Part shown: piece after piece, positions 21,044 to 62,860 of the stretch | Numbering within the stretch: the first letter of the stretch is position 1 | Layout of the letters: every line of letters starts with the position of its first letter | NCBI GenBank assembly: GCA_031213475.1 | Contig: JARUPZ010000010.1 | Location: 2,783,985 to 2,847,984, forward strand | DNA: 64,000 nt | Source of the DNA: Nereocystis luetkeana | Taxonomy: Eukaryota > Sar > Phaeophyceae > Laminariales > Laminariaceae | Direction of reading: 5' to 3' | Notes under the pieces: generated by a model | Databases searched by the model: none | Told to the model about the DNA's origin: nothing | The model's input: the letters and a program-made list of their open reading frames with translations, nothing else | Position numbers and translations under genes: made by a program

Positions 21044-22055
21044 GTGAGTTTGAACCAAGGGCAATGCGGCGAGGGTGGGCGGCGAATGTTTCATGTCAAA
21101 TCCTGTACATCATCTATGACATGCTTTTTATTGTATATCTTTCGAATTGCATTATCATTATCGTTTCCTGAGTCGAGGGAGAGAGAGGTTCCTCCCCTCG
21201 GCCAGATACCTGTATCGCAGCTTCCTGCAATACCCTGGATATCTCGACCACCCTAATTCTACGTCTCTCTCTCCCTCCTATTATACCGGTCGAGTTCCTG
21301 ACTAGTACGGCCTACAGTTGTCTCGGATGACCAAGCCTCCAAATGGTACGGTACCATTCGACTCCTCCAATCTAACCTACAGTAAGCCCTAACGGAGGGA
21401 ACGACATTTCCTCCGTACCCCTGGCTACTCGTGCCTCCCCCCCCCCCCCTTCGAAAGAAAAAATATGGGGGGGGATGGGGCGGCGGAAAATAAAGCACAA
21501 CTTCCTGACTTGGACCCACAAACCAGCGATTACCTCACGTCTGCCCGTGCTCGTCACAGGACCTCGTGCTTGCTCGGGCCCGGCGTGGGGATGCTGACCT
21601 ACGCTCGGTGCTCAGCTTGGAAGGACTGCGTGCGCGGTCTTCCCTTCCAACCAAACTTGTTATATCCCAGTTCCCGATACAGGCATGCCACATTATATCT
21701 ACCAATAAACCCTGCTTTGTCCGTTACTTCGTTTGCGGAGGCCGTTGCCTCGTCTACGGACAAACCTACCCTTTATTGTATATCTTTCGAATTGCATTAT
21801 CATTATCGTTTCCTGAGTCGAGGGAGAGAGAGGTTCCTCCCCTCGGCCAGATACCTGTATCGCAGCTTCCTGCAATACCCTGGATATCTCGACCACCCTA
21901 ATTCTACGTCTCTCTCTCCCTCCTATTATACCGGCCGGGTTCCTAACTAGTACGGCCTACAATTGTCTCGGATGACCAAGCCTCCGAATGGTACGGCACC
22001 ATTCGACTCCTCCAACACCGAGGTGATGTGAGGCTACTGTTTGCTGTACTCATAG

Positions 22056-24943: not shown

Positions 24944-25286
24944 CCAAATCCCCGACGCCGTTTACCACTACCGGCACCCCGTCCGTGATTATTCTCACCA
25001 ACAGGTCAATCTGCGGAAAACGCTTAGTATACCCAAACCAGGCCGACACCCGACCTGCCTGGACGCGGGGGACGTGTTGCAAGTTTTCGAGGGCCCGCAT
25101 GCACGCGAATTCCCCCCCGTGGACCGACAAAAAATAAGAATAGTGACTCGCTACGCGCTCAAGCGCCTGTTCTACCCCCCCGGTTCCGGCCACTGCCATC
25201 AGTTCATGTACCGACTCAACGCACGCGCGGGCAAGGGCCAGCCCACCTGCCGCTGGCCCTGTCGTCATGTGACGAGGCCCGTCTCC

Positions 25287-26624
25287 CTATCCGCGCCCGG
25301 GCGCCGCTGCCCCCGAGGCGGCCCCGCCCCGGGCGGCGGTACTCCCCCCCCCGCTGTTCCTGGAGGCGCTGGCGGCCCCATTCGGTTTGGGGCGGCCCTC
25401 CCGCCCACGCCCGCCTGATGGCGGGCCGCCGCCTCCGCCGGTGCCGCTGTTGTCGTTGTGTGCACTTCCACCGGTCCCGCCGCGGCCGTTGCTCGCCCGG
25501 TACTTCTTGTGGGCGGAGTGAGCGTACACACACTTTTCGCCGAACCGGCACCCGCGTGCCTCCCCCCACGCGAAGCAGTCGCCGAACCGGCTGCCCCCCC
25601 CCGAGGTCTGGCGGTCGCGCTTCTCCGCGCGTCCCGCGACTGCCTTCGGGGAGAGCCCAGCGCCTAGGAGCCCCCCTCCCCATATGTAGTTGGTTTGGGC
25701 TGGCCACGTCGGGTACACCACGCCCGGCATGTTCTCGATCATCGGGGGTGGACCCTTTGCGACGTCCACCGCTGCGGAGAACAGGCGCTGGCAGTATTCC
25801 TTCATATCGGCGTCGATCAAGGTGGCCATGAGCGCCTTGTTCTCCGACATGACAGCCTTGGGCCGGTGCTTCCGGCAGTGGATCCGGAGATCGGAAAGAC
25901 CCCGCCGGAGTCCGTCCTCCAGCATGCTGAGCCTGTCCCCGCCGTCCTCCGAAACCACCCCGTTCCCCATGACCGCCATGATGGCCTCCACCATGATTTC
26001 CAGCTGCTCCGGCAGGAGCATGGCCGCCGCCAGCCGAGCGGTGTCGTCCTCGGCCATAAACGCTCCGACCCGGAACCCGGTGAAGGTGTTCAGCTGGGCG
26101 GTCGTCTCTTCCGACGCGAGCGCCACATCCCCCAGTAATGCCTGCATCTCTTCCCGTTTCAGGTTGTACACCGCCGGTTTTTCCCCGGTGGTGATCCACA
26201 TCTTCCGGACGCCGAGGATACGCCACGCCGCGAAAAACTCGTTGTGCTCGGCTCGTCGCCCCGGTGCGATAGACCCGTCCCCGTAGGCCCCCGGCTGCTG
26301 GGACCCCGCGATGGAGAGCTGCATCTGTTCGCACATGGCGGCCACAGCTTCCCGGTCCTCGGTCAGAGCGGCGACCACCTCCTGCGTCGCGGAGAGTTGC
26401 TCACGGATTGCCCGGAGGTCCTCCCGTATCTCACCGACCGCCGCCACCAGCGCGTCCGAGTCTCGATCCGTTTGGAGCTGGCGGATAAGCTCGGCCAGCG
26501 ACGCGAGTGACACCCTCGCCGAGGGCGCCGGTGTCGCCGCCCCGCCCCTCGCAGCCGGGGCGTTTCCGTCCCGGTCCGTTGCCCTCGGCCCCCGCCTACC
26601 GCCATTCCGCGTTGCCGACGGCAT
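25287..26624 (-). mobile_element. DIRS gag-like region
   Basis: Part of the DIRS element: 445 residues opening with MPSATRNGG. It holds a central Glu/Ala-rich predicted helical stretch and, toward its C-terminus, a CCCH-type finger (C-x8-C-x5-C-x3-H) within CRFGEKCVYAH. The tail is Gly/Arg-rich, suiting nucleic-acid binding. Its position upstream of RT supports a gag role. Confidence 0.7.
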
Positions 26625-27599
26625 CTGGTTGCGTCGCTGCGCATACGGGAGAGCGCGGCGGGAGGTTGGTAGGGAGGGGGGGGGGGTTATGTGGTGAAGA
26701 TATATTTCTCCCCCTTTCGCGCCTTCTCTGCACTCATACGTACGTGTATCTTCTTCCGCCCGCCCCAGGCGGGTGACTCAGAACCCGTGGGCGCCAAGCC
26801 CAGCATCCCGAGCGACAAACGAACAAACAAACAACGTGGGGACGGTGGGGGCGGGACTTCCCAGCGCGATGCTCTTCCCCCCCCCCATGTTCGCCGCCTC
26901 TAATTTGAGATAGTTGCTTCTGCGTATGCCACCGCCCTGCCCAAACCGTGCTTATCAGACGGGGCGCACGACTCACGCCGGGCGGCGTGGGCCGTGCGTC
27001 CCGCGACGAGGGATACTCCCCCCGCCCAACACGAATTCTGGAAACAGGGCCACCGGCAGCAGGGTAGTTACCTCACCCGGCGTTGTTTCACTATGTCTGT
27101 CTCAATCCGTGTCTACGTCACTCGCTCGGTTCTCCCACTCCTCCAGTCTGTGTGAAGGATAACTTGCTGGCCAATTCGTTTTTCCCTTCTCGCGCTTATC
27201 TTTCCTTCTTTTTTTGTTTTCTCTTTTTTTCCTTTTTTTTCCCCTCTCTCCTTCGTTTTTTTTCTCTCTTTTTTTCTCTTTCCGCGACCGGTGCCCGGCG
27301 CGTGATTTGCTTGCTCATTCTTGGAAAAAAAACAATTTGGATGCCGAATAAGTAACGCTCCCCGGAAAGGAGGGAGAGAAAAAAACAACTAGGCAAATGG
27401 GGGAATCCAGGCTTCCAGCCCCCCCGGTTCTTCCTTCTCTCTTCTTGTTTTTGTTTTTGTTCCTCTCTCTCTCTGTCTGTCTTTCCTTACTCTCTTTGTG
27501 TCTACCCATGTGGTCGTTCCGAATAATTCCCTCGTGCATTTCCACCTGGGTGGGCCCTCCCCGCTTCCACAGCGAGCCCGCGCCTTTCCGTCTCCACGG

Positions 27600-29060
27600 C
27601 CGGTCAGCACCGCGTCGGTCGTGCGTCTATATATATATTGTTCCCGTCGCACGCAGCAGTACTGTCTCCACAGCGCCCCGACTCTAGTTATAACCGCGGC
27701 CCATCCTTGGCCATGTTTCCATTAGTATCGGGCTCAGAGCTTGTAGTATCAAGCCACACCCCATCGGTGGGGCGTCGATATGTTTTCATCGCGCACCGCA
27801 GCCCTGTCTTCATGGCACGCCGACTCCAAGTATTGTTATAGCGGCCCCCCGCCAGCGACCCGTGTCAGTCGTGCGTGTATATGCGTCCTCGCTCACAGCG
27901 GTACTGTCTCCGTCGTGCCCCGACGCAACTTATCGTTATTCTCATAGTGGTCCACACCTGGCGTGTGTGTGTGTGTATTTTTCTCTCTCACTAATCTCAG
28001 GCCGAGAAATTGTAACCGGACTGTGCCTCCACACCCCACCGCATCGTGTCGTGCGTTCGTCCACATGTTTGCATCCCGCACAGTAGTTCTGTCTCCACAG
28101 CTGCCCAAGGATTGACACGAGGCTAATTATTTATTTTTTTCTCAGGCCACCCCGCCGTGTCAGTCGTGCGTCGATATGTTTTCGTCGCGCACAGCAGCAC
28201 TGTCTCCACAGCGCGCCGACTCAAATTATTGTTATAGTCGCCCCGGCCAGCACCCCGTTTCGGTCGTGCGTGGATAGGCCTCTTCGCACGCAGCGGTACT
28301 GTCCCCACCGCAACCGACTCAAGTTATTATTATTATTGTCCTAGTGGTCATTACCTGGCATGTGTTTCCTTTCGTTTCATTATTCTCAGGCCGAGAACTT
28401 GTAACCGGACTGTGTCTCCCCACCCAACACCACCGTGTCGGGCAGTCGTCCAACCTGTTTTTCTTACACGCGGCAGTTCTGTCTCCACAGCTGCCCAAGT
28501 ATTGACATAGGGCTGTTTTTTTTTCTCTCTCTCTCTTTTCTCTTTCACAGCCCACGCCACCGTGTCGGCCGTGCGTCGAGATGTTTTCCTCGCGCACAGC
28601 AGCCCTGTCTCCACAGCGCGCCGACTCTAATTGTGGTTGTAGCGGCCACGGCCAGCAACTCGTGTCGGTCCTGCGTAGCTATGCTTCCTCGCACAGAGCA
28701 GTGCTGTCTCCACAGCGCACCGGCTCCAATTGTTAGTATTGTTAAAGTAGTCCATACCTGGCCTGTGTGTGCGTTTTTTTTCTCTTCATTCGTGACGGGC
28801 CGAGATTTTGTTTTTTTCCTCTCCCTTTCTTTCTTCCCCGGCACACCATATACTTCCATCGCACGCCGCAGCACTGTCTCCACAGCGCCCTACGCCGATT
28901 ATAATATGTCTCCACAGCGCACTTTCTATAAGTATCGGACCCTGGGCTTGCAGCCAGACTGTCTCCACAGCGGCCCGCACCCCATGTCAGTCGTGCGTCG
29001 ATATTTCTGTTTTTCGCGCGCACGGCAGTACTGTCTCCACAGTGCACCGACCCACATTCT
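27600..29060. repeat. Degenerate tandem array in the DIRS leader, about 13 units
   Basis: The phrase CTGTCTCCACAGC or a close variant recurs about 13 times, mostly every 60-110 bp. It is often preceded by CGTGTCGGTCGTGCGT-like and CGCGCACAGCAG-like segments. The array lies between repeat A1 and the gag-like region, so in element sense it forms most of a leader of nearly 3 kb. Pyrimidine-rich runs (27180-27300, 27430-27500, 28510-28550) flank and interrupt it. Confidence 0.75.
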
Positions 29061-29872
29061 GCGGGCGACCGATTGTTATTCTGTTATTAATAGTATTACA
29101 ACTATGTCCTTCTTGCCTTTCGATAATGTGCAGTCTGATCTGCACCATTGAGCACGCATCGCTTTCCTGCCTTCTCATTGTTATTGTAGCTGCCTACACC
29201 GGCGCCACAACGCGTCCTCCCTCTGCCGCGTTCAGGAATGTATGTCCTATCAATAGCGTGTTTTGCGGTTGTGCATGCATGCATCTCGAGGCCTACCCTC
29301 GTCTCCCGTTACTGCGAATAGCGTGTTTGCGATGTGCATGCATGCGTCTCGGGGCCGACCCTCGTCTCCCGCTATGGGGATGTGACCGCCACTCTCACCC
29401 ATCGTTTCTTCGCCTATCGCTAGATAGCACCTTATCGCCAGTCAACCATCTCTACACACGCGAACATACCGTGTGGTTCTCCAGCCCTCGCAGCAGATCC
29501 CTGATCGCCAAGTCGCGTCCGCTCGTCCCCGCGCTCAGTTCGTGGTCCCAGCGGGCCGGAGTCGAGACGGGAGGGGAAAATAAGGCACAACTTCCTGACT
29601 TGGATCCACAAACCAGCGATTACCTCACGTCTGCCCGTGCTCGTCACAGGACCTCGTGCTTGCTCGGGCCCGGCGTGGGGATGCTGACCTACGCTCGGTG
29701 CTCTGCTTGGAAGGACTGCGTGCGCGGTCTTCCCTTCCAACCAAACTTGTTCTATCCCAGTTCCCGATACAGGCATGCCACATTCTCTCTACCAATAAAC
29801 CCTGCTTTGTCCGTTACTTCGTTTGCGGAGGCCGTTGCCTCGTCTACGGAAAAACCTACCCTCCATTCCGCG

Positions 29873-31029
29873 ACCTAGTGTCTTTTCGTTTCAGGGCGAT
29901 CCGGAAATAAACGGCCAGTTAGTTGACTTCAGTTCAACCGCTCATGTTGTTTTTCTTTGGTGGTACATGTAATCAACAGTTGGCAAAAACAGTTGGCAAA
30001 AAGACGGCAGGAGACCTCTTTTGAGGAGAAAAGTCTAGTATCCTTGACAAACAGTAAATTGGTCGTCTAGAAGTTGGTCAGTTCGCGATGGATTGCTGAC
30101 CTTGACACTAGGCCCAGTTTCGGGGGGTATATTTCGACACGTCAAGTCTTACACCATGTCTTCGGTTCTGCATGCTCACCTGAACGGCCCTCGACTATCC
30201 TGCCCACAATGACGGAAACGACCGCAAAGACGTGCCGCGACCCGCCGTCAGCATCAAGGACCTGGAGGACAAAGTGCTCAAGTCATTCGAGCCTATACTA
30301 TGCTGCAGGAACTCGGTAGTGCCAAGAAGGGGTACCCCGCTTTTAGTGACCTTAGTGAAATGACGACAGCTCGGAAAGTGCTATACATTATTTTGGGGCT
30401 GCTCGGTACAGGGTTCTCCGAGGAACCTGCTTCACAGAGATGTTTACCATTCCCAGCACATACAATGAGCAGATTCCCCCGCTAGTCTGGTAGATGTGTT
30501 GTGTGGTAAGCCGTGCTGAGTAGAGCACAGGCGGCATACCCCACGGTCGTCGTTGTACGCTGTTTTCCCAACCAATGGGGGGCATCCAAGCAGACCGCAT
30601 ACTGGTGATCCAGCATCGGATACTGTTCTCACAGTGTCCCAATGCTTATCGCAGACATACTCAGGGACAGTGGGGGTCCGGGTTTGGGAGATGGCCGTGT
30701 GTGTCAGATCTGTTTTTTTATTATCACTCGTGACCGTTTTAGGGCTGCACTCCTGCGTTTGGGCTCCAAGTACATGTCATTTGAGTAGCTTGTCCCCAAC
30801 CCGGGACTACTGCGGTACTATAACTCGGTTGAGCTCGAGCCTATTAGCAACCGGAATGCGATTGAATATATTCTGTATGGCTGCACCAAGCCGTTGTACC
30901 TCTCTGAAACCAGCACCTTCTGTGAGACCGGTACATGTTGAATCGTGCCCCACTCTAACGTAGCGGTATATATCGACCAGCGTGCATCCGTCTCCGATGA
31001 TTTGTTCGCGAATATTACACGTTGACCAG
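29873..31029. other. Mostly non-coding; one protein-like stretch at about 30204-30302
   Basis: From about 30204 (+) a frame reads YPAHNDGNDRKDVPRPAV and then IKDLEDKVLKSFEP. Its composition is protein-like, but I could not identify its splice borders or family. It might be an upstream exon of the LRR gene that follows. Confidence 0.25.
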
Positions 31030-34149: not shown

Positions 34150-34296
34150 GGTACTCGATAGGAGAGATGTACTCCATCTTATGCATGGCCGTAGTCGTAT
34201 GACCATAGACCCTCGCATCCCTACAATGCCGAGACAGAGCATGTCGGGTTTTCACCGACCACGCAGACATTGCTTGCACCAAGCGCGAAGCGCCGT
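34150..34296 (+). repeat. PH repeat
   Basis: Full-length copy of a family of about 130-180 bp. The core reads GTAGTCGTATGACCATAGAC, then CTCGCATCCCTACAATGCC, then a TCACCGACCA.GCAGACATTG block. A run of G immediately precedes it (34140-34150). Confidence 0.85.
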
Positions 34297-34309
34297 GAGG
34301 GGGGGGGGG

Positions 34310-34428
34310 GGGGTGTACTCATTATTACCATGCATGGCCGTGGTCGTATGACCATAGACCCTCGCATCCCTACAATGCCGGGACGGAGGACGTCGGCTTT
34401 TTACCAACCAGGCAGACATCGTTTGCAA
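34310..34428 (+). repeat. PH repeat
   Basis: Second copy in tandem with the previous one, separated by a 15-base G run. It ends at the CAGACATCG block. Confidence 0.85.
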
Positions 34429-42531: not shown

Positions 42532-44748
42532 ATGTGCTCGCTCGGCAACACTCCCGCCCGGCGCTCGTGCACGCGGCAGGGGGAGCTTAACGAAGCGGCG
42601 GAGCTCTGCGCGGCGGCTACTCGCACAGCTCCTCGAAATGCTCGGGCTCGCTACCTGCGAGGAGCCGTAGCCCAGAGGGCAGGACGAGGTCGGGAGGCTG
42701 CCGAGTACGCATGCGAGGCCGCTCGACTCCGGCCGGACTTGCCTGCCCTTCAGCTTGCAGCGGGGTCTCTGCTCTACCGGGGGAAGGAGTATGCTAGCGC
42801 GCTGAGGGTGTACGAAGGGGCCATTGAGAAGGACCCAGCCGACGCACGGTATCACCTCGGGGGTGGGTACCGTAGTGTAATTGTTGGATGCGGACGCCGT
42901 ATTTTATTTATTCGATTATTTTTCGCCCCATTCAATACCCTCGCCCTTCTTTTCTCTCTCCTTCCTAGTCGTACCTTAGATCCGGCGGTTACACAGGAGG
43001 CGTTTCTCCCCCCTCCCCACTACGGTACGTGCCTTCATTTTTGTCGTGAGTAGGTCCTGCACTTTCCCCCCTCGTCGACTCACGTCGAGTCACACCTACC
43101 CACGCTATGCGCTCTGAGGAATCCGTGTTGATAAAAATCATAGAACCCCACAACATGGCAGGGCTCGAAACCCTGGTCTTCGACCTGAGGTAGATTTCGA
43201 GGCTGACCAATAGACCACCGGAGCGACCTCGTATGGATGGTGAGAAACGGGAGTGGTGTACCGCCTAGGTACAGCAGTTAGCTGACGGACACCGCATTGA
43301 TACCGATACTCGTATTGATGTTAGTAGTAAATGAACAGGAATGGTGGAATGGTATATATACGAGTATAGAATATTAGTCACACAGAGGTAGCTGTATTTA
43401 CGTTGCCCCGGCTGCGACGAAAAAGTCTTGAATACACTACTGTTGACAAGGCACCCGGATCCGAACCCAAAACCGGTATTGACCTAATGTAACTTTGACA
43501 AAACGGTTGACACATACCTGGTACTCGACAGTACCATGTACCAGGGATACCCTAACCCTTACCCTAACCGGAACCCCAACCGGATGGAAAAAAACTCGAG
43601 ATGGAGATGGCATGAGGAGTTCAAGTGTGGTCAATGAACCACTTTTCTAAGCTGGGCCAAGCCGTTAAATCAACCCTTGAGACCACGGGGATGGAGACGC
43701 CATAAGGAGTTCAAGTGTGTTATATCAACCATTTTTTCTAAGCTGGGCTAAGCCGTTTATTATTAACCCTTGAGACCACGCTTTTCCACCCGCCCCCAAA
43801 CACACCCAGCCGCTGCTGCCCTCAGAAAACTTGGCCGGTGCAACGAGGCCACCGCGTCTCTCCTCCGCGCCGCCGCCACCGCTGACCCTCGCGACGCGCA
43901 CGTGCACTACAAGCTGGGGCAGCACCTGCGCTCGGTGGGAGGGGGCTCCTCGTGCGCTCTGGCAGCCGAGGCATACGGTCGGGCGCTTGCGCTTGACCCT
44001 GGTCATGCCCTGGCGGCGTTCTGGCTGCAGGCCACGAGGAAGCGCGGCGCGGCAGGTGATTGTTCCGCGCGTTTTCGAAGTTGTGTTTAGAGCCGCGCTA
44101 CGGCGGTAGAGGTATGCACTTTTCAGCCCGAACATGTATCGCTGATGGGGCTCTCCCCAACCGAGGACTTACCCGATATCTGAACCCGATTGTTACACTA
44201 GCATTCGTCAGCTACTGATATAGGCCAAGGGGTTGTGTAACGGGATTAGGCGCACATTTAGTTGCTGCAGCTGCTTTACGTAAGGGTCCGTTGATGCTCT
44301 AGTTTTGTTCCTTCAAGGCCTCTTTAGGCGTCGTGGCTCAGTATACTTGTTTAGTTGGAGTAGGGAGATATTTGACGGCTTTCCGTCAAGGGGGGAAGAG
44401 GGCCGTCAATTGACAGTGTTAAGCTGTTGCTGTAAGTTGCTTTAGGCAAGTGTTAGGGCCTGGGTTATACCTACTAAAACCATAAGCCGCTCGTTCGATC
44501 TTGTGCCTACTGTTCTGCTGCGCGATACTCGAGTAGTTTCGAAACAATACCTGCTCTACTAAAACCGATATACAATACTACTATATCTGTTCACGAAACA
44601 CCCAGTAAAACCTGCTGGTTGCCTGGTGAATATATAATCGAACGACGTTTGGAGGCGCTTGTCGTGACCTCCATCGAGCACTCGGAAATCGGACCGCAAG
44701 CCCCGCACTGCTTTGTTTTATGATCTGCAGCTGACTTGGACTCGGTCA

Positions 44749-44790
<42 letters not shown>

Positions 44791-46849
44791 TGTCTGTCTG
44801 CCCACCTCACTCCCTTTTTTATTCCGTCGCAGCAGCCACCGCCGAGCAAACCGAGAGCCGTGCGGCGATAACGCGAGCCGGTAGCGCTATCTACTCAGAA
44901 CCGGCCGATGTCAAATACATTGCGCAGACGACGACCCCGCTCGCGGCGCCGCGCGAGTACGTGACCAGTTTGTACAACTCCTACGCGGAGACTTTCGACT
45001 CCCACCTTCAGGGATCTCTAGGGTACCGAACACCGACCGTCATTGTCGAAACCCTGGGCGTTTTATTTCCGCGAAAAAGGTGTGAGGCTGTTGCGCAAGG
45101 CACGCCTTGGGATAGCTATGAGCGTGGAAAGAAAACGGTTGTTGTTGGTGTCGTTCGCTTCCACTCATTTTGTTTTGTTTTTTTCCAGACACTAGGTATG
45201 GCTTTTTCGGAGACTTTGTGTTGACGGGACTGTCTTGTTTTAGGATTTTCGATCAGCGAGAAGACGTTAGCATTGAAGAAAGGAACGGGGAACGCCTGTC
45301 TGCAGCATACAGCAGCTGCTGTTCGTAGGCGTTGGCACACATAGCCGTTGAACTTTCCTGAAAAATGTGTTTTTGGTGGGTTTTCTTTGTTCGCGGCTCG
45401 TTGGACGACGATGTATAAAATTGGTGGCGCGGCTTGAAGCTTAGCAACACATGCGCGCCTGAGCCCTGCTGGTGACCATGCGTCCCTGCCGCCCCACTCA
45501 TGTCTTCAACACCCTGACCTCTAGAAGCGTACTAAAAACAGATTCGCACAACTTTCGGGTTGTCGTCTTTTTTCGCGCTCCACCCGCAAGTGCTGTGTTG
45601 CTCGCATGTCCTCTACGCACCATAGTCCTACAGTCGAATGCTAACACTGCCTCGTATCTCTCCTCTCGCTGACCCCGCCCCGCCCCCTCTCGTGCCTGCC
45701 TGGTCGGTGAACACCCGACGTACCCAGCCCCGGCATTGTAGAGATGCGAGGGACTATGGCCATACGACCACGTACATACCTGACACGATCACACCGGCCC
45801 CAATCCCCCAAACCTATCGCCCCTCCGTACCACGGTTACCTTTTTTCCCCCCAAAGATGGAAGCGCTGCCTCGACCTGGGGTGCGGCACCGGTCTCTCGG
45901 GGCAAGCCGCCTCCGCCGTCTGCCACCGCCTTGCTGGGGTGGACCTCAGCCCCGCCATGGTCCGGCAAGCACGCCATAAAAAGGTATACCATCGACTCCT
46001 CGTGGGTGACGTCACCGACACGGTCACGAGCCTCTGCCGCGCCAACGGTAGCGGTAGCGGTAGCGGTAGTGGTACCAATAGCAGTGGCGTTCGCGGTATG
46101 GGTAGCAACAGCGGTAGCACCAGCAGTGGCGATGGCGATAGCGGTCACGGAAACGGTGGTAGGGGGCGTGATTGGACCGAGCCCGAAGCGGAGGAAGAAA
46201 AAGGGGGCGCTCCCAGGGGGGAACGAGAACATCTCAACTCCGACCTTGACCTCGACCTCGAGGGGAGAGCGGGATTGGTGTCCAACACGGTAACGTCCAT
46301 GGGAACAGGAAAAAAAAGGGAAAATTACACGGGAACCGGAGAGGGAGAAGCGGGATCGGTCACGGGAACGGTCACGGGAACGGTCGCGGGAACTGTCACA
46401 GGAATCGGAGGAGTGGGAGATCTCGCACTCTCAACATGTTCGACCCCGCCGGCGGTGGAGTCGGCGGCGGCGGCGACGGCATTGGCAGCGGAGGGGACAG
46501 CGGCATTGCCCGTCAAAGCCAGCGGGGCCGAAGCCTGCGGAGGTGACCTCGTTCTCTCGTGTGATGTGTTCGGGTACATAGGTGACCTCCGGCCCTGCTT
46601 CGAGGCCGTCCGTCGCCTCTTTCCGGGAGAGACCGATGGTGCTAGCAGGAGTGGCGCCGCTGTCTTCGCGTTTTCGGCGGAGGCACCTCCGGTCGGATCC
46701 GCGGCCGTCGATGCTGAAGCGGAGGGACGGGGGGCGGGAGGACGGGGAGGGGGGGCTGAAGGAGATGCGGGCGGTAGCTTTCAGGCTGGTGAGGGGCGAC
46801 CGGGGTACGAGCTGCAGGGTACGGGCAGGTGAGCCTCGCGGGGCTTCGG

Positions 46850-51479: not shown

Positions 51480-52180
51480 TGATTGCTTTTAGTGATGGAG
51501 TGATTGATTGACTGGTTGGTTGAATGGTTGGTTGATCGATCGATTGATTGGTTGGGGAGCTAACTGATTGATTGGTTGATTGATTGGCCGGTTGGTTGAC
51601 ATAGAGAATGATTCGTTGGTTGCCTTGTACCGTGACCAATTGATCGTTAAGTTTTTGATCGATTGAGGGGTAACATCGATCATTTGGCTCGGTTGGTCGA
51701 TAAATCGAAAAATTGATTTGGTTGGTCAACGAATCGATCATTTGATTGATCCGCTGCTTGATTGATATGTTAAATGCGTGATCGGTTAGTTGAGTTTTTG
51801 GTCGATTGATCGGTTGGTTGGCTTGTGCAGTGATCGATTGGTCGGTCATTTGATTGGTTGATAGACAAATCGATCATTTGACCGGGTGATTGATCGTTCG
51901 ATAATTGGTTGGTTGATCGACGAATCGATAATTAGTTTGGCACATTTGACTAGCCGATTAATCCATCACTCCATTGATTTAATGATTGATCGATCCTTTG
52001 AGTGCTCGATCCAACAGTCGACCGTCTGATTGGTTGATAGGATAATCGACCATCTGATCGGTTGATTGATACACCAATCGCATGTTTGGTTGATTGATGC
52101 ATTCAATTGTTTTAGCGGCTCGTTTGTGAATCGATCATCTGATTGGTCCATCCATTGATCGCCCGTAACCACGCAGGTCG
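51480..52180. repeat. GATTGGTT / GATTGATC tract, about 700 bp
   Basis: Long degenerate run of GATT- and GGTT-based units with interspersed ATCGATC. It reads as open frames only because of its composition; these are not genes. Confidence 0.85.
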
Positions 52181-52390
52181 GGACAACCCCAGTCAACTCT
52201 CACCCTGGCAGCAACTTAGTCGCTTCCCAGTCAGCGGCAGCGGAAATGATCCGTGAGAATCTCGAGAAGTCAACACGGAGAGCTCGTGCGTCCGTCTGAA
52301 CAAGCACCAATCACATCAACAACGACAAAAAGAGACAAGACACGTTTCGAGGCCTCGCTGTCCCTCGAGAGCCGGAACGCAGAGGGGGAG

Positions 52391-52562
52391 GGGGGGGGGG
52401 GGGGGGGGGTACTCATGCCATGCATGGCCGTAGTCGTGTGACCATGGACCCTCGCATCCCTACAACGCCGGCACGGAGCACGTCGGGTTTTCACCGACCA
52501 GGCAGACATTGCTTGCACCAAGCGCGAAACACCATGAGGTGTTCGGCGAGTCGCATGACGGG
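52391..52562 (+). repeat. PH repeat with preceding G run
   Basis: Near full length, from the G run at 52391-52408 to GCGAGTCGCATGACGGGTG. It lies just downstream of the neuferricin gene's apparent stop. Confidence 0.85.
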
Positions 52563-52665
52563 TGGGGGGAGGGGGAGGGGTGGGCGCTCGCCATTCAACC
52601 CACCGACAACCGACAACTTACCGCGCCACAAGCGGCCATCGGGGGCATACCATTTCTATCCCATC

Positions 52666-55600
52666 TCACCTGAGGAGACGGTCCTCGTTGTCGGCAGCAA
52701 AAGAAGCGTCGAAGCAAGAGCACCTGCCTTTCGCCTGAGAAAAAATCGAAGAATCCAACAACAGCAACGAGCGAAACAAAAGCGACAGCGACAACGAAAT
52801 GTAAATGAAACCACGGCCAAAAATCGAGTCACCGCCTTTTCCCCTGAAGACAAACAAACAACAAAATGTACGTAAAACACGCAAAGGGCATAGAAATACA
52901 CAGCGGATTTCGTGTGCCCCGGAAAGAACAACCAATTGCATGCATCCATGAAACGAAAAGGATAAGACTTGCTTGCCCTCGTGTCCTTCATATGAAAACA
53001 TGCGCGATCCACCAACCACTCGCTTGCGAAATTCAGGATCAGGGTCGACCGAGCAAAAATACTTTCGAACTGATATTCGTTTGTAGCGTACGGTAGTTTG
53101 GAGCATCGCCTAGAAAAAACGCGACACAGTGTTCAGCTCGGCGGCAGGCGACAGGCGCAGCCGATGCGCAGGACGAGGGAATCGACCGGTCCCAACGGCT
53201 GAGCTAGCTGGCTTACCGCAGGCTATAGCGATGACTATCGACAAGTCTGGCCTTGTCACACCCACATCTAACTGGCGCATTCATGCGGTACGCCATCACC
53301 TAAACCTGCATAGCACTGCAGAAACAACCCGCGAAAGGCACACGGGGCCGGCCAACGCTGCGTCCATCTCATCTCTCCCGACCGAAAACAGTCGGAGACG
53401 GCACCGGCGAAGCATGAAAATGAGTGCCTTACCAACCGACGGCCACACCCCATAGGCTAAACCACGCCAAACTCCTCTCCTCCCCTAGCTATCCTCCCGT
53501 CGGAAGCGATGGCTGCCCACCCTCCCACCGTTCTCCGTCCACCCCCCTCCCTTCCTACCTTTATGCGACTCGCCCGACACCTCACGGCGCTTCGCGCTTG
53601 GTGAAAACAGCGTCTGCCTGGTCGGTGGAAACCAGACGTGCTCCGACCCGGCATTGTAGGGATGCGAGGGTCTATGGTTCATACAATTATGGCCATCATG
53701 ATAACGAGAGCACCCACACACACTCACTTACCCCTTCCTACCCCCCTCCCTCCTCCTCCTTCTGCCCCCGCCTCCACCCTACGCACCTTAGCAGCGTCGC
53801 GGCTGGGCTCAGCGTCATCCTCCCCACCGCCCGCTCCCCCCGCCGCAGGCCCCCCGCCGCTACCGCCGTGCGAGCGAATATTCGCGCCGTGCACCGCCTT
53901 AGCCGCGAATTTTCTCGGAACTTTCTCGCCGTCCGGGCACCACACGCGGCCTCCCTCCGCGGCTGACCATTTGCTGTTGCAGCTCGGGTACCTATCGTGG
54001 GCGGGGAAGGATGCGAGGCGTTGTGAACCGGGGGGGGGGGGGGTAGCACGGCGCCATCAAATCAAAGCAGTAATGCGCCCATCCATTCATCCACCCAATC
54101 AACCATCCAACCATCTGCCCATTCAACTATCCAATCAATCCATCCATCCATCCATCCATCCAACCATTCGTCCATCCAACCACCCATTCGTTCAACCATC
54201 CTTCCAGAGGGTGGGGGGTACAAAGGAAGGCGGAAGAGCGAGAGGGGTGAGGAGACAAAATGAAACGACGCAAAGGGTTGACGGGGGGGGGGGGGCTTCA
54301 AAGCCTCAAGTCAGCGACGACGGACACGGGACCAAAACCCTCCTCCCGTAAGCGGAGGGGCAGGAACAGTCGCCAGGAATCGACCACCTGCCCTACCACC
54401 CCCCCCCCCCCTCTCCCCCCAACCCCCGCTATATATAACCAATATTCAGGCTGGATTGGCGTCGTTTGGCGACGACACTGTAAAGCGTACCGCTCACCAA
54501 GTGGGCTAGACAACCAGGGTACCGTTTCGTTGTTTTTTTTTAATTGGGAGGTCGGTCGGTCACAAAAGGCGATTGAGTTATAGACCATTTTATGTGGAGT
54601 GGAGAACCGATACTCCGCACCAAGGGAATGATCGCCTCACGTGGTGGTTATGGCAAGGCACTCACGAGGCAGTCACGTAGTACCCCCCCCCCCCCCCCCC
54701 CTCTGGAAATGCCTACACCAGAAAATAAGACAACTCATTGGCGCTGTCATCCACATGCAAGGCCGCTTCACAATCGGTTCCTGGTAGGATGCTGCTCACC
54801 CTTCATGCGACTCGCCGCACACCTCACGTTTCGCTTCGCGCTTGGTGCCAGCAATGCCTGCCTGGTCGGTGAAACCCCGACGTGCTCCGCCCCGGCATTG
54901 TAGGGATGCAAGGCTCCACGGTCATACGACTACTACGGCCATGCATAATATCGAGTACACCCCCCCCCCCCCCCAACCTACTCCTCTCACCTCTCCACCC
55001 TCGCCATACGACTACGGCCATGCATGAAATGAGTACCCCCCCCCCCCCCCCCCCCGCCTTTCCCCCCCCCCATCGCCTCCCCCCCCTCCAACCCCACACT
55101 GCCTCTCACAGTTTCTTTTCCTCAGCCTCCCGTTTCTTCTCCTCCCGCCCCGCCTCCGCACACCCCTCGAACTCCGCCAGGGCAGGCGTCGGCTTGCCCT
55201 TGGCGTCGTAGAACCGACCCGCGAGCACCCCCCGATACTTGTACTTGCTATCGTTCTCGTAGAAGTCGTGCCAGTCCTGGGGGGGGGGGGTTACATCAAG
55301 GAGGCGGGGGTGGGTTATCGAAGGGCACGGCGCGGGGGGAAGGGGGACCGGGGGGGGGAAGGGGTTACTCATGTTCAAGCATGGCCGTACTGGTATGACC
55401 ATGGACCCTCGCATGCCTGCAAGGCCGGGACGGGAAAGGAAAGGGGGTTTCGAAATAACCATGGCGCTATAAATGATGGGGCGCTGGGATGGCCCTGATT
55501 TCTCGTGCAACAAGGGTCTGCTCTTCAGGCCCTCTGCGCGCCTCCTCGGCAGTCCGGGGGGTCCCTGATCACAGCCAATCCCCGCCAGCGATGTCGACTG

Positions 55601-58600
55601 ACGCTTGCGCGCCTCCTGCCGTCTCCTCTACCTTCGCTCCCTTCCTATATCACATTCGCCCCTGCCTCCCTCTTCCACGCCCCCCCCCTTAATTCCTCCC
55701 TCCCCTCCTTCTATTTTGTTTCCTTATTCCCTTCTTCTCTCTCTCCCTCCCTCCCTCCCTTCCTTCCTGCCTCCCTTCCTTCCTGCCTGCCTGCCTTCTT
55801 TTCGGGTTTTCCGGTACCGCTGCTTTGACTTGGAAATTGAAAGTTGAAAGCATCATCGCCCGGAAAACAAGCAAATAAGGGGGGCGGGCAGGGGGAGGGA
55901 GGGGGGGCGGGGGGACATCACCGTTCACCATCACTGCTACCACCTCAACACCCCCCCCCCCCCCTACCGCCACAGAAACCATTAACACCAACGCCACCTA
56001 CACCACCACCACTACCAACACCATCATCACCACCACCAACAACAACTGCACCACCAACCCCGCCCCCATGACCATACGGCTATGGCCATGCATGACGTGA
56101 GCACACCTCCACCCCTGGCCCCGCCACCGAACCTCAAGCATTCCCCCCTCTCGCCTGAATGCCCAAGCACTGTGACGGGTCCAACCCGGACAGATCGTCA
56201 GTCAGCCCCGCCTGAGTAAGCCACAGACAGCAACCACCACCCGGGAGGAATTGTGTCGGCGGCAACAGTGAAAGAAAGGGGAGAAAGAAAAACAGGACGG
56301 GGGGGAGGGGGGGGGGGGGGGCGAGGGGGGGCGAGGGAAGGGGGGGGGGAGGAGAGGTACTTGTTTGTTGCTTGCCTCAGCCATTTGACCTTTGACTGCC
56401 GCATCCCTTTTCAAGGCGGAGCAACGTCCCTACCCCTAAGAAAAGTAGAGGCACCCCCAACAGTTGGGCGCTCATGACGTCGTTTCCATCTACGACATAT
56501 GGAGACGTTTTGCAAGCACTATCTCGGAGGGAAGCACTACTCGATAGGAGAGATGTGCTCGATCTCATGCATGGCCGTAGTCGTATGTCCATGGACCCTT
56601 GCATCCCTACAACGCCGGGACGGAGCATGTCGGGTTGGGCGGGGGGGGGGGGGTGTACTCGATAGGAGAGATGTACTCGATCTCATGCATGGCCGTAGTC
56701 GTATGACCATAGACCCTCGCATCCCTACAATGCCGGGACGGAGCATGTCGGGTTTTCACCGACCAGGCAGACATTGCTTGCACCAAGCGCGAAGCGCCGT
56801 GAGGTGTCTGGCGAGTCGCATGAAGGGTGAGCTGCATCCTACTAAGAACCGCTTTTGTGGCGGACTTGCATATGGACGACAGCTTCAATGAGTGGGGGGG
56901 GGGGGGGGGGGGGCAAACAGAGGAAGAGGCGTCGCCAAAAAGGGGCTGAGTGCCACAGACGTGTTGTACTTGTATACGCGCACTGCTGCGCGGCAGAGGT
57001 TAAAAACTGATAAGAGGGAGAGTTACCTAGACCGCAACCAACCAATCAGCCAATCAAAAGCAGTTTTGTTTTAGATACTACTGTAGTAGGTCTCATCACC
57101 CGAGGAATTTTGCTGGAATGTTATTGACACATTTCGGGCTCGAGATAACGTAGGGCTATAAGGATAGAGACGGGATTCGAGGGAAAAAAAACAAAAACAG
57201 AAAAAAAAATACCAGGCTGCGACTTGACTCCACAACTACCGCCACACCGGACGAACTATTGGACGACAAGCCAAACAAAAAATAGGTAAAGGGGCCAGGT
57301 ACGAAGTACTTGTTTTTTCCTGAAAGAAAAAAGTAGCCGAAAGAATTGAAAGCGTTTTTATCCACAAAGTTTGAACTTTTAACTCAAGTTGTTATAATTC
57401 TTGACAAAGTGACACCAGGTACCAGGTACTTCAAGGTGTTTTCGTTTGTCCGGAGACTATGTGTAGGCAGGCAGGCAAGGCGTTGAGAACTTGACCATCA
57501 GCCGCCGGTAAATAACAACCCAAAATCGATGGGATGCAGGCACACGGTTCGGCGCACGAAAAAATCAAACGCCCGTGGTGTCTTATCTCGGGAGCCTTGT
57601 CAAAACCTTCCTCCGACGGTCCCCGGGGGGGGGGGGGGGGGGGGGCGATATATTATAGGGAATGGACGCTCATACGTACAAAACCGTCTCGACTCAACGG
57701 GCAAAACGGTTCGGTCTGAACGACGCGACGTTTGACAAATGGGATGCACGCATATCGCGCCGCGTCTCGAGTTCCGCCGCGCTTCGTCCTAAGGGGCGCC
57801 GAAGGAAGCGCGCTTCGTCTCGATTAGGGATGCGTGGTTATTGGTCAAAATACTCACGCAAGAAACGAATGAGTACGCCCCCCCCCCCCCCACCCTACGA
57901 GGGTCTAAGGTCTATGGTCATACTACTCCAGCCACGCATGGCACGAGTGCACCCCGCCCCCCGCCCTCCCGCCCCCGCCCCCCGCCCGCCCGCCACCATC
58001 ACTCTTCTCGCAACCCCCCTCTCCCGCAACCACCGGCACAGAAAAACAAGCAGGCGTCTTCGTACGTCCCTGCGGGGATTAAGTGATCGGTATACAAACG
58101 GTCCCACCGATCGCAAGGGTGCCTCTCAAACCCGTTCCCGCTCCTCCGCCCCCTCCAACCCATTCCTCCCTCTCGCTCCCTTCCTCCTCGTCCTGCTCCT
58201 CCCCCACCCCCCCCCCCCCCTCCTCCTTCTCCTCTTCCTCCCCGTCCCCCCTCTCCTCTGTCCCTCCTACTCCCCCCTCCTTCCCCCCCCCCCTACCTTT
58301 CCTCCCCCTCTTCGTCACCCCTGCCCCCCCCCCCCCCCCGCGCCTTCCAATACCTCCACCCCCCCCCCCTCCAAACCCCCCTCCCCTGCCTCCCCCACGA
58401 CTACCTTGGTGAAGTCGCCGCTGACGAAAGCGCGGGACGCGTCCCTTCCCGTGAACCCTCGGTACGCTCCTCCCTTCCCATAGTGCTTCTCGCCCTTGGA
58501 CACGTCGAACACATCCCCGAGAATGCTGGGGTAAGCGAAGGATAAAGGCGTTTTGAACCAGCGGGGGGGGGGGGGGGTGATGCGCGCACTCATGTCATGT

Positions 58601-59903
58601 ATGGCCGAAGCAGGGAGGGGGGGGTTGTGGGGTGTATTCATGTCATGTACGGCCTTAGTCGTATGACCATAGACCTTCGCACCCCTATGATACAATGCCG
58701 GGAGACGTTAGTCGTATGACCGTAGACCTTCGCATCCCTATGATAAAATGCCTGGAGACGGAGCACATCGGGGTTTCATGGACCAGGCAGGCGTTGCTTG
58801 CGGGAGGGAGGGGACACACGCTACGAGCCAGGGGACGGGAGGGGACTGGACACGACGAACACACCTATAAGAATGCTGAGTGGCCGAAGGGCGAGGGGAG
58901 TGGGAGGCGTTTCGAAGCAGCGAGAGTGGGGGGTGGGTGAGGTGGCTAGAGGTAGGGGGTAAGCGTGGGGGGGGATAGGAGGGGGGGGGGGGGGGGGGTA
59001 GGGAAGGAGGGGGATAGGGGTGGGGGCGGGTGGGGGGGGTGAGAGGCGTTCCGAGGAAAGGGATCGCGGGGGGGGGGGGGGGGGGGGGGGGAGGTCTGGC
59101 TATCAGGCGGCACCCCGGCGCGACAGTATATTACCATCCTTGTGAGACATAAGAGGGAGAACGTAACGACACCATGCGACAATTACAGCATCGGCCACTG
59201 CGTGCGGTGGGGGATAAATAAATTTGGGGTTGCCCTTACTCGTATATCTCTAGAATGAAGAAGCGATGTGTGCTGGATGTTCGCTGAGTAGAAAGCGTGG
59301 TCGAATGTGAAGAGACCATATGCGACACATCGGAAACCCAGTTCACCATCACACTGTAGATAACGTACCCCCCATCCATACAAGCCATCTGCACAAACCT
59401 AGGAACACGGCCGCCCTTTGAGACCGACCTTTTCTACGACGCACACGGCTCTTAATACACACCCCAGTAGGCTGAGTGGGACCTTGTACAACACAGGCTC
59501 TTTGCACACTACCTACACGACGACAACCATCGGGCCTAGAGTATCTAGATCGTGATCTGTCTCTCTGACAGCTCCTGTACACACATTCGCCGAGCGGGAC
59601 CCCCGTGAGACACGCCTCTTGCATAGCAGCATCAAAAACGCCAACTACAAGATCTACATGATCTAGGATTTCACATATCATGATCTGTGGGATCTGTGCA
59701 CCTCAGCATAGGGCGCGGGCCCACTCCCTTGGCCAGCAGCTCGGAGGCTGAAAAAACTTTCGGCCCCCATCCCAAGGCGGTTCGTGCATCGTCCCACGCG
59801 TGCTCGACCAACGGTCTCGGCGGTTCCAGGACTTCGAACATACAGCACAGGACGTAGGCGGGGAAGAGGATGACCACGGCCTTGCGTACGTAGTAATAGG
59901 CCC
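52666..59903 (-). CDS. Neuferricin-like (CYB5D2 family) haem-binding cytochrome b5/MAPR-domain protein, 5' exon not found
   Basis: Six minus-strand exons join in phase: 59902/3-59702, 58525-58405, 56211-56155, 55276-55110, 53991-53787 and 52734-52666. The first gives a hydrophobic segment ([15 protein letters not shown]) and [17 protein letters not shown]. The second gives [32 protein letters not shown]. The third gives [13 protein letters not shown], the fourth [20 protein letters not shown] and [13 protein letters not shown] plus a charged helix. The fifth gives [18 protein letters not shown] and [10 protein letters not shown], and the sixth GRCSCF. This is the whole domain order of neuferricin-type proteins, membrane-anchored or secreted MAPR-type haem proteins of the endomembrane system. 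Exon 59903 starts with two bases of a split codon, so an upstream first exon is missing. The exon 3 donor appears to be GC rather than GT. The end could be TGA at 52666 or a further splice at CAG|GTGAGA. Every intron carries PH repeats and G/C runs. Confidence 0.85.
53563..53702 (-). repeat. PH repeat, in the last intron
   Basis: Copy from GCGACTCGCCCGACACCTCA to ATGGTTCATACAATTATGGCC; the far end is altered. It lies between neuferricin exons 5 and 6. Confidence 0.8.
54060..54190 (+). repeat. (CATC/AACC)n tract in intron 4 of the neuferricin gene
   Basis: Runs of CCATCCATCCATC and CAACCATC. A G run at 54028-54040 lies just before. Confidence 0.85.
54805..54975 (-). repeat. PH repeat with poly-C end
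   Basis: Full-length copy ending on the + strand in GAGTACACC followed by a 14-base C run. Confidence 0.85.
55007..55055 (-). repeat. PH repeat, end fragment with poly-C
   Basis: Only the CATACGACTACGGCCATGCATG end, followed by GAGTAC and a C run, is present, directly after the previous copy. Confidence 0.75.
55278..55440 (+). repeat. PH repeat and G runs in intron 3
   Basis: Partial PH copy (55362-55435). In the neuferricin sense strand, a C run of about 12 bases directly abuts the CAG acceptor at 55277-55279. Confidence 0.75.
55735..55800 (+). repeat. (CCCT)n / (TTCC)n pyrimidine tract
   Basis: Long pyrimidine run of TCCC and TTCC units within intron 3 of the neuferricin gene. Confidence 0.8.
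56066..56104 (-). repeat. PH repeat fragment
   Basis: Only the CCATACGGCTATGGCCATGC and GAGCACACC end is present, about 50 bp from neuferricin exon 3 (its GC donor side). Confidence 0.65.
56535..56640 (+). repeat. PH repeat
   Basis: Copy from ACTCGATAGGAGAGATGTGC to GGAGCATGTCGGGTTG, cut at a G run where the next copy starts. Confidence 0.85.
56641..56832 (+). repeat. PH repeat, the fullest copy
   Basis: G run, GTGTACTCGATAGGAGAGATG, the core, and the complete far end GCGAAGCGCCGTGAGGTGTC then GCGAGTCGCATGAAGGGTG. It is useful as a family reference. Confidence 0.9.
57893..57962 (-). repeat. PH repeat fragment
   Basis: ACGAGGGTCTAAGGTCTATG and CATACTACTCCAGCCACGCA, ending near C-rich sequence. 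A C run also lies on the other side. Confidence 0.65.
58563..58704 (+). repeat. PH repeats, one partial and one fuller, in intron 1
   Basis: A G run (58562-58577) is followed by CACTCATGTCATGTATGGCC, a short break, then TATTCATGTCATGTACGGCC and the core. They lie about 40 bp upstream (gene sense) of the acceptor of neuferricin exon 2. Confidence 0.8.
58705..58805 (+). repeat. PH repeat, tandem copy
   Basis: Core TTAGTCGTATGACCGTAGAC to the GACCAGGCAGGCGTTGCTTG block. Directly follows the previous copy. Confidence 0.8.
58960..59095 (+). repeat. G-rich runs
   Basis: Several runs of up to about 22 consecutive G separated by A/T-containing spacers, in intron 1 of the neuferricin gene. Confidence 0.9.
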
Positions 59904-59905
59904 CT

Positions 59906-60062
59906 GGGGGGGGGGGGGCAGGGGGGAGGGGGGAGCGGGGGGAGGGGGGAGGAAGGGGGAGAAGGGGGGACGGGGGAGGGGGCAGGGGGAAGGGGGGGGG
60001 GGGGGAGGAGGGGGGAGGGGCGGAGGGGGGAAGGGGGGAGGTGGGGGGAAGGGGGGCGAGGA
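59906..60062 (+). repeat. Purine (G-rich) low-complexity tract
   Basis: About 155 bp almost wholly G and A. In neuferricin sense it is a C/T tract leading straight to the CAG acceptor of the 59903 exon, so it may act as its polypyrimidine tract. Confidence 0.85.
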
Positions 60063-60166
60063 GGGGTACTTATGTCATACATGGCCGTAGTGCTATGACC
60101 ATAGACCCTCGCATCCTTACAATACCAGGACCTAGCAGGTTGGTTGCTCACCGACCAGTGGGCAAC
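60063..60166 (+). repeat. PH repeat upstream of the first neuferricin exon seen
   Basis: GTACTTATGTCATACATGGCC, core, then a diverged GGTTGCTCACCGACCAGTGG end. It suggests this region is also an intron. Confidence 0.8.
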
Positions 60167-62860
60167 AACCATGCCAGTATCGATTGAGGGCAATGCCACT
60201 ACCTCAAAAAGGGTATTCGTGGCGTCGAGCACGCTACAGTTTGAACAAACAGCATGCACGCCTTCTACATCAGTAGCAAACCTGCGAGGTGAAAATCCCA
60301 GGCAGCTCGCCAGATTTCGAAGGAAACACGAACAACGAACATCTGGAGGCAAACAAAAAAAAGGAAAGCACCGTGTGGAGGCAAACATACGCGTACATAG
60401 TGAGGAGCACCGATTTCACTCCTCGGGCAGACCATCTACAGATCGTTCAATCCCACAGTTCGAGATCTAAATCCTGAAAGCCCGATATATTTCCTGAGAG
60501 TAGGTTAAGCAGTCTGGGAGAAGGGATCTTTAGGGATGTTTTTTACTTGAATAATGTGTAGCGTGGTCTGCACTTCGGAATCGTCGTCCGCATCTGAGAA
60601 AGTTCCTGATTCGATGCAAACTCGGCGTAGCCGCGTGTATGGCGAGCTTTGGCCCGTTTTGGCAGCGGTTTGGGGTCAGGGTCAGGGTTAGGGTTAGAGT
60701 CAGGGGTTGGGCTGGGTCTTCGCCCGTACCTTGATCCCGAAACATCCGAACAGCCTACCAACCTGAAGACCCCTTCTCCCAAATTGTTAAAAGGTCCTCT
60801 TTCCTAATCTGTATGATATGTATGATCTGTATGATCTAGCTCATGTTGCCGGGTGGGAGCCGGGTAACCTACACAACCCCGAAAAAGTTACCCGGGGTTG
60901 GACTGCACTGTACAGACCCTGCACAACCTCTCGCAGCAACAGTCGAGGGTTGACTCTACGAGCACGAGCGAAAACCCGGTACGTACGGTGATACGGGGTC
61001 GACTGCGACCTGGAACAGCGACAACATCGTACGAAATATCTTCGCGCAGGCTGGTACATCCGGCTTCAGCTACCAGTAGGTTGACACCTTCGGGATCCTC
61101 AAGATAGCGACCAAACCAACGATGATTATGGTGTTGTCAACTGTTCATGTGTTACGGTATTTGGGGGTTTTGCACATTAAATATGCGTGTTTCTGTGTGG
61201 AGTATTCAACGGGCTGTGACATGTTTCGTCCGCCATCTTGCCTTGCCTCGCCTCGCCTTGCCTTGCGTTGCTTTGCCTTGCTTAGCCTTGCCTTGCCTTG
61301 CCTTGCCTTGCTTTGCCTTGCCTCAACTTGTCACTTTCTTCCTCTTTTTGTGTTCTTCGTGGATATATACGTGTACCAGTGTAGCGGGGTATCTACATAA
61401 TGGGTGCCCGTCTATGAACCGACTCAGGCCCGGCCCGCCATATCAGTGAAATGCTTTGGACATCAGCCATTGGATCGTCTGCGAGCATCGTGGGCCCCCA
61501 GCAGCACGACTAGGATCAGGTTGTGCGCCCGTCCCGTACGGCTCGTTGCCTTGGAAGTCGGAAACACTAATGATACCTTGTACCGTCCCCCATTCACCAA
61601 TCAAGCAGTGGCCGTTGCTGGCAGTGTCAATTGCTATCTTCTGAAGTTCCCAAGAGGACTAAAGTTCGCTCGTACTCGTACGTGCATATTTGCCGGGCAC
61701 ACTGTTGGTCGATCGATTTGATGCTGCAGCAGTACGAAGTAAACATCGGTCGGCTCTACGGTGCTTGTAGTCCGGAAATATAACACCGTTTGGTTGGGCA
61801 TCCTTATGATTGACCGCTGTTATAATGCCTGCCTGTCTGTCTGTCTGTCTGTCTGTCTGCCTGTCTTTCTGTCCGTCTGTCTGTCTGTCTGCCGATACGG
61901 TAGCGCGATAGAGGACGCGTCAGCCCCGCATTGCCCCATGGGCAGGAGAGGCTTGGTGACACAACCAGCAGAACACCGCCGTGTCTCATGCCGCGCCGAG
62001 CTGTGGCCGTGGCACCATCCCGAGGCAGTTCTGACGGCCATCAAGCCAGCCTCGCTGCCGACTTGACAACTTGAATTACAATTCTGGCAGCTGATTGGTT
62101 GGTCAACCCATGCCAGAGGTCGCTGACCCTTTCCAGAAGGTTATGTGGGGCTAGTGGGGTTGAACAAGGCCATCGAGGTGTCGCCGCACCTGGGGAAGAT
62201 AGGGTCGCATTCCCGACTAAGAAACCCCTCCATATCTCTATGTACAACTCCGACAAACCGGGGACAAAAAAGGCGACCCCCCGGGGACGACACCGCCTCG
62301 CACGGTACCAAACGGTCCATACATTTCCGGGCAGAGTGGCACGTACAGCGGTACACAGCATACAGTCGATATAGAACTACATACTTAGATCACAACCCCT
62401 GAGCGTGCTCGGTTGGTGTATCCCTGGCCTCTCAGAGCTCCCACTTCCAAACCGCCTCCTTTCATTGATTGCCGGACCTTTCCAGCAGTTCTTTGTTTTC
62501 TCGGTCCTTTCTTCCTTTTTTCTTCTTTCGTTTTGTGTGCATGCGTGTTCTCCGAGCACGGCATCGCGGGAGGACCCGGCACCGTCGCGGGTGTCAGCGG
62601 GTGCTGGCGGGTAGAGGGGGGGTTGCAAGGAGCGCGGTCGCCGCTTTCGTGCCTAGGCGTCGCGTGTGCCTCGAGATACGAGGGATGCATGAACGGGCTT
62701 TGTCTGACTTCGATTTATGATTGTTGATAGAGTATGTACGAGTTCATAAAGGTCGTTCGGGAGGGCAAGATAATGTTCAAGCGGTGCTTATTTTTGCGAC
62801 CACGCTAAAGTTGAAAGAGGGAGGTGTGCAGTTTGAACACCAACGTTATCGAGCTGGCGA
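60167..62860. other. No recognised gene
   Basis: It holds a TTAGGG-like interstitial stretch at 60668-60706, a (CCTTG)n tract at 61240-61325, and a (CTGT)n tract at 61830-61890. The open frames crossing these tracts have repeat-like translations. The missing first exon of the neuferricin gene is expected somewhere in the first part. Confidence 0.4.
60668..60706 (+). repeat. Interstitial telomere-like repeat
   Basis: Contains GGGTCAGGGTTAGGGTTAGA and near variants. A complementary-style CCCTAACCCTTACCCTAACC stretch is at about 43550-43570. Confidence 0.7.

Follow-up and report, generated by a model that had tools for sequence, protein, structure and literature searches.

Gene content of the locus

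The window, the 64-kb stretch of DNA analysed here (53.4% G+C), holds an intron-rich neuferricin gene on its minus strand. Five exons and introns 2 to 5 of this gene can be placed (Table 1). The joined five-exon protein matches Cyt-b5 at 2.6e-6 (Pfam) and PGRMC1 (4x8y) at E 4.5e-11, with an alignment that spans the junctions of introns 2, 3 and 4. The exon join across intron 5 is in phase, and introns 2 to 5 together measure 5,365 bp. The last of the five exons presumably resembles the neuferricin C-terminus, and the donor that follows it at 53786 points to a probable sixth intron. No exon was found upstream of 59904, and intron 1 is represented by the acceptor at that position alone. The original prediction of five in-phase introns thus holds for introns 2 to 5, the first intron being visible by its acceptor. 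Within intron 2, 58849-58935 is by eye an apparent decayed duplicate of the exon 3 start and its acceptor (cgaacacacctataagaatgctgagtgg against cgaacacatccccgagaatgctgggg in exon 3).

Two acceptors of the neuferricin gene consist of a C run placed directly before AG, (C)13AG at 59904 and (C)12AG at 55277, as had been claimed. A C run of at least 9 lies within 60 bp of 4/5 acceptors, compared with 12% of intronic positions (binomial P=0.001, under a null that used an arbitrary intron 1 span of 59904-60200).

The Pfam search covered all six frames of 34001-63999 (stops as X) and 10 ORFs, positions 1-34000 being scanned through 8 of the 10, and most of the window carries no genic or intergenic label. 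Within this scope, the matches are a methyltransferase, a weak reverse transcriptase, a weak TPR, Cyt-b5 and nothing else. The TPR matches (42574-42861, +) fall below curated cut-offs and lie upstream of the methyltransferase domain. The reverse transcriptase match, also below its curated cut-off, is in an ORF at 23195-24961 (-); a possible LTR-type retroelement occupies 21437-30000, and the same 40-bp tandem stretch occurs at 21721 and 29811. Degenerate repeats about 24-29 bp long (TTGATTGG / ATCGATCATTTG) lie at 51493-52159, and a telomere-like stretch, GGGTCAGGGTCAGGGTTAGGGTTAG, lies at 60673-60712.

Table 1. Exons, introns and PH copies in the window
Feature	Coordinates	Strand	Basis
Exon, TM segment and start of Cyt-b5-like domain	59702..59903	-	open stretch, Cyt-b5 match
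Neuferricin exon	58405..58525	-	open stretch, PGRMC1 alignment
Neuferricin exon	56155..56211	-	open stretch, PGRMC1 alignment
Neuferricin exon	55110..55276	-	open stretch, PGRMC1 alignment
Neuferricin exon, then donor at 53786	53787..53991	-	open stretch; presumed family likeness
Intron 2	58526..59701	-	
Intron 3	56212..58404	-	
Intron 4, GC-AG, C12 immediately before AG	55277..56154	-	
Intron 5	53992..55109	-	
Methyltransferase intron with one PH copy	45080..45856	+	in-phase join by eye
PH copy, sense, with a C-rich tract running to the acceptor at 59904	60068..60158	-	profile
Two PH copies from an internal tandem duplication, sense, on the acceptor side of intron 2	58636..58801	-	profile
PH copy, antisense, donor side of intron 3	57907..57946	+	profile
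PH copy, sense, acceptor side of intron 3, longest of pair, ends at G20	56674..56893	-	profile
PH copy, sense, acceptor side of intron 3	56557..56636	-	profile
PH copy, antisense, 55 bp from intron 4 donor	56066..56099	+	profile
PH copy, sense, 89 bp from intron 4 acceptor	55366..55438	-	profile
PH copy, antisense, 75 bp from intron 5 donor	55003..55034	+	profile
PH copy, antisense, donor side of intron 5, G/C run at both ends	54702..54957	+	profile
PH copy, antisense, about 75 bp from donor at 53786	53558..53709	+	profile
PH copy, 3' side of neuferricin gene	52411..52564	-	profile
PH copy, sense, in methyltransferase intron	45693..45786	+	profile
Tandem pair of PH copies joined via G run, no gene identified there	34170..34428	-	profile

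Distribution of PH copies

Copies of the PH repeat were located with a profile built from 12 seeds, 10 of them window copies and 2 from fetched contigs. At a cut-off of E<0.001 the profile finds 15 copies in the window, and the reversed window gives nothing below E=2.5. The 10 window seeds match by construction, and all had been found earlier by blastn. Nine of the 15 copies lie in introns 2 to 5 of the neuferricin gene, and one more (60068-60158) adjoins the 59904 acceptor. Copies therefore occur in all of introns 2 to 5 and beside the intron 1 acceptor, as originally predicted. The methyltransferase intron likewise holds the copy that had been claimed for it, in sense orientation and about 70 bp from the acceptor. 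A copy formerly placed beyond one end of the neuferricin gene (53558-53709) instead sits in the probable sixth intron.

PH is absent from part of the window. Between 34429 and 45692 the profile finds no copy at E<0.001, and by eye this stretch holds at least one upstream methyltransferase exon with its acceptor. Not every intron in the window, then, carries PH.

Anatomy of PH

Aligned PH copies share one fixed start, and the other end is cut at many points. On the strand beginning TACTC, base composition in the 35 bp preceding the fixed end is on average 62% G against 11% C. A G run of at least 8 lies within 45 bp of the fixed end in 8/15 copies, a C run of that length in 0/15; the remaining 7/15 copies have no run of at least 8 near the fixed end. 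A G run in this position looks the same whether it was carried as a tail or was present in the target. The DNA past the cut end is also G-rich, with a mean of 45% G and 17% C over 30 bases. G exceeds C there in 12/15 copies, equals it in 2 and falls below it in 1. One of the ties (54798) and the single lower value (56674) come from copies that outrun the profile and truly end at G19 and G20, and the other tie (58636) marks the point where the two units of the internal tandem duplication meet.

G runs flank both sides of the copies at 34170 (G11/G15), 54702-54957 (G15/G19) and 56674 (G13/G20). In the pairs at 34170-34428 and 56557-56893, a G run links one copy to its neighbour. No target-site duplication other than of G was seen in the PH flanks by eye, and G runs on both sides of a copy would hide a G duplication.

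PH thus shows two features of a retroposon: one end is constant and the other variably truncated, and a homopolymer tail adjoins the constant one. Its appearance is that of a short, 5'-truncated retroposon set in poly-C:poly-G, with its 3' poly-C on the other strand. No tRNA gene or Pol III promoter was found for PH. Rfam gives no family at gathering score and no convincing weaker match in 52300-60300; the sub-threshold matches score far below gathering scores, and nearly all are miRNA models on low-complexity DNA. PH was also considered as a conserved RNA structure. This candidate was dropped, as none of 9 predicted pairs shows a compensatory change.

With PH masked, comparison of the introns with one another returns one weak match and no other. 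It is a diverged, PH-like inverted pair within intron 3 (56357-56423 and 57811-57876, E 0.03), each member beside a G/C run, which suggests an older PH subfamily.

Orientation and run polarity

In introns 2 to 5 and the methyltransferase intron, the C tail faces the nearer splice site in 10/10 PH copies. These copies occupy relative intron positions of 0.08-0.22 and 0.75-0.88. They lie 55-462 bp from the nearer splice site, and none reaches both sites. The rule extends to 13/13 when three weak PH-like stretches are added; with clusters counted once, it is followed by 7/7 (two-sided p=0.016), a rule spotted after looking rather than predicted and based on one gene and one intron of a second. 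The two orientations of PH had been taken to argue against a simple model, yet orientation tracks position.

The homopolymer runs themselves are concentrated and polarised. Introns 2 to 5, at 5,365 bp, contain 28 of the 49 G/C runs of at least 8 in the window, and the other 58,635 bp contain 21. Sense G runs of this length are distributed 11:2 between the 5' and 3' halves of the introns and sense C runs 1:14 (Fisher 5.4e-5), the exceptions being two G runs and one C run. Runs within an intron are not independent, and polarity counted per intron is 4/4, which alone gives p=0.125. When runs within 40 bp of a scripted list of PH fixed ends are set aside, the distribution is still 8:2 for G and 1:11 for C (p=0.0015). 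Run polarity is kept without the runs near PH fixed ends, and so does not depend on PH. The methyltransferase intron has no run of at least 8, yet its skew goes the same way, from +0.28 in the first quarter of the intron to -0.38 in the last. The last quarter of intron 5 is not negatively skewed (+0.06).

A short motif, AGGCGTT (+), occurs at 54016, 57478, 58546, 58789, 58905 and 59044, and three more times elsewhere in the window. Two of these sites lie just upstream (sense) of the acceptors of introns 2 and 5, adjoining the C run.

Predicted pairing of intron ends

In the minimum-energy folds of introns 3 and 5, G runs on the donor side face C runs on the acceptor side in a nested arrangement. 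The donor-side run of intron 4 forms local pairs, and the end-to-end pairs there do not come from donor-side runs. Pairing was measured as the number of base pairs that join the first 35% of an intron to its last 35%, against pooled dinucleotide shuffles. Intron 3 forms 156 such pairs, a value reached by 0/44 shuffles, and intron 5 forms 98 (2/67 shuffles). The counts are 84 in intron 2 (6/67), 63 in the methyltransferase intron (10/67) and 45 in intron 4 (17/67). Over the five introns the combined p is 0.006, and intron 2 and the methyltransferase intron are above the shuffle mean. Masking G/C runs of at least 6 lowers end pairing in introns 2, 3 and 5 and the methyltransferase intron, and not in intron 4; masking PH clearly lowers it in intron 5 alone. 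Because skew alone yields such pairing, end pairing is a lead and no demonstration.

Fold stability was rejected as a supporting measure. Total fold energy is better than that of shuffles in intron 3 only; introns 2, 4 and 5 and the methyltransferase intron are no more stable than shuffles, and introns 2 and 4 are less stable.

PH in bacterial and viral contigs

Bacterial genome contigs scanned with an exact 22-base sequence yield four (L001 to L004), each with one PH copy by profile. At least some of them apparently belong to metagenome bins from bull kelp, which points to a probable brown-algal host for the window. Kelp-microbiome metagenomes have been reported to include reads of the host kelp, Nereocystis luetkeana (PMC9238374). 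Three of the contigs (L001, L002 and L004) look by eye like joins of bacterial and PH sequence, and in L001 and L002 the join falls at or beside a poly-G run. These three are likely cases of misassembly or host carry-over in published bacterial MAG contigs. L003 has no evident bacterial gene by eye and no clear skew pattern, and the G11-TGTACTC junction is seen in it too. In viral contigs, four exact patterns gave 0 matches to PH, and 8 pattern matches to neuferricin relatives gave 0 confirmed. A search for phage found none.

Proposed run-directed insertion and its alternatives

As a short non-autonomous dispersed repeat, PH is most likely a retroposon, and its copies probably went into strand-polarised runs that the introns already contained. 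The PH 3' end (strand ..GGCCATGCATGAnATnGAGTAC) passes into poly-C, and the 5' end is variably cut. New copies would enter oriented poly-C:poly-G runs, leaving like sequence on both sides, and a new copy may enter the tail run of an earlier one to give a tandem pair. In the neuferricin introns, G runs of the sense strand lie towards the donor and C runs towards the acceptor, so run-directed insertion would fill these introns and set antisense copies at the donor end, sense copies at the acceptor end. A C run left beside an acceptor might then serve as the polypyrimidine tract or part of it. Run-directed insertion would account for the density of PH, for both of its orientations, for the tandem pairs and for the acceptor C runs. 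The introns would then predate the repeats. No autonomous partner for PH was found in this analysis.

The placement of the fixed end, always on the side of the G/C run, would also follow if PH carried its own poly-C tail, insertion were not run-directed and selection on splicing removed misoriented copies (those whose tail would bring C close to a donor or G close to an acceptor). The tails near acceptors agree with this, as do the decayed G-rich stretches at the fixed ends of older-looking copies. Cut ends run into G-rich DNA too, however, in 12/15 copies, and runs distant from PH have the same polarity. The rule also extends to copies lying 345-462 bp from a splice site, where selection should be weak. 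A carried tail is accordingly an unlikely account. The concentration of runs and copies in one gene, and the frequency of tandem copies, could alternatively reflect a local homopolymer-prone region in which slippage grew the runs and PH arrived by ordinary insertion or gene conversion, the polarity being a small-sample accident unrelated to splicing. The methyltransferase intron without a run of at least 8, and the lack of a clear skew pattern in L003, point the same way. The polarity of both runs and copies nevertheless flips between the halves of the same introns, and C runs lie near 4/5 acceptors. A local accident of this kind is therefore improbable.

The original prediction read the arrangement as introner-type biology, in which PH insertion into exons would have made these introns and the C tail would have given the 3' splice signal. 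The (C)12-13AG acceptors at 55277 and 59904 and the presence of PH in each of introns 2 to 5 speak for such an origin. Against it, PH ends fall 55-462 bp from splice sites with no copy spanning both, PH is antisense beside donors, and no similarity between introns reaches both boundaries. The introns measure 0.8-2.2 kb and consist mostly of unrelated sequence, three of them interrupt a conserved domain, and no gene was identified at the site of the 34170-34428 pair. An introner origin is thus very improbable, and what fits the data is the other part of that prediction, intron targeting with a C tail able to act as polypyrimidine tract.

Run-directed insertion, the preferred reading, can be extended to splicing itself in a speculative and rather doubtful model. 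Brown-algal introns would be framed by G runs towards the donor and C runs towards the acceptor, and duplexes formed between these runs in the pre-mRNA would bring the two splice sites together. The retroposon family would home to the polarised runs, exploit and rebuild this splice-site frame, and leave mirror-image copies at the intron ends.

Comparison with known systems

Some retroelements insert into simple repeats, among them Chlamys-type Penelope-like elements. PH is like them in having a simple repeat on both sides of a copy. It differs in that the repeat is a homopolymer rather than a dinucleotide, and no reverse transcriptase is linked to PH. A literature search found no paper on poly-C or homopolymer-related non-LTR elements.

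A close intronic counterpart may be in Ectocarpus, whose introns are filled by short 5'-truncated LINE copies and short non-autonomous families (PMC12477816). The Ectocarpus genome has 4,821 LINE/CRE copies (0.42% of the genome) and 4,782 PLE/Chlamys copies (0.43%), and its short, mostly truncated LINE-type and related families include RTE-X and RTEX-N1; LINEs are enriched in evolutionarily old genes (PMC12477816). These families resemble PH as short 5'-truncated copies in introns, and the host group is probably the same. In contrast to PH, the part of that report consulted here mentions neither junctions with poly-C nor a G/C-run context, and no rule that relates orientation to splice sites (PMC12477816). 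Intron enrichment of short truncated LINE-type copies has already been reported (PMC12477816); what PH adds is the polarity and the way it follows the runs. If run-directed insertion is genome-wide, one step would explain intron filling, both orientations and poly-C polypyrimidine tracts in a GC-rich genome.

Introners share with PH their nature as dispersed intronic elements of aquatic eukaryotes able to supply splice signals (PMC9860276). In the survey text consulted, they are defined by similarity that extends to near both splice boundaries, and target-site duplications or terminal inverted repeats accompany some introner families and not all (PMC9860276). Unlike introners so defined, PH does not extend to both splice boundaries and takes up part of a longer intron.

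The predicted end pairing has a parallel in zebrafish, where introns with complementary dinucleotide repeats at opposite ends are spliced without U2AF2 (Lin et al. 2016, via PMC9198270). Both sets of introns have complementary simple repeats at their two ends that are predicted to pair. The repeats here are instead homopolymer G and C, with a mobile repeat nested inside and pairing that is a prediction only. If run-directed insertion is genome-wide, it would also offer a non-animal test bed for splice-site bridging by complementary simple repeats.
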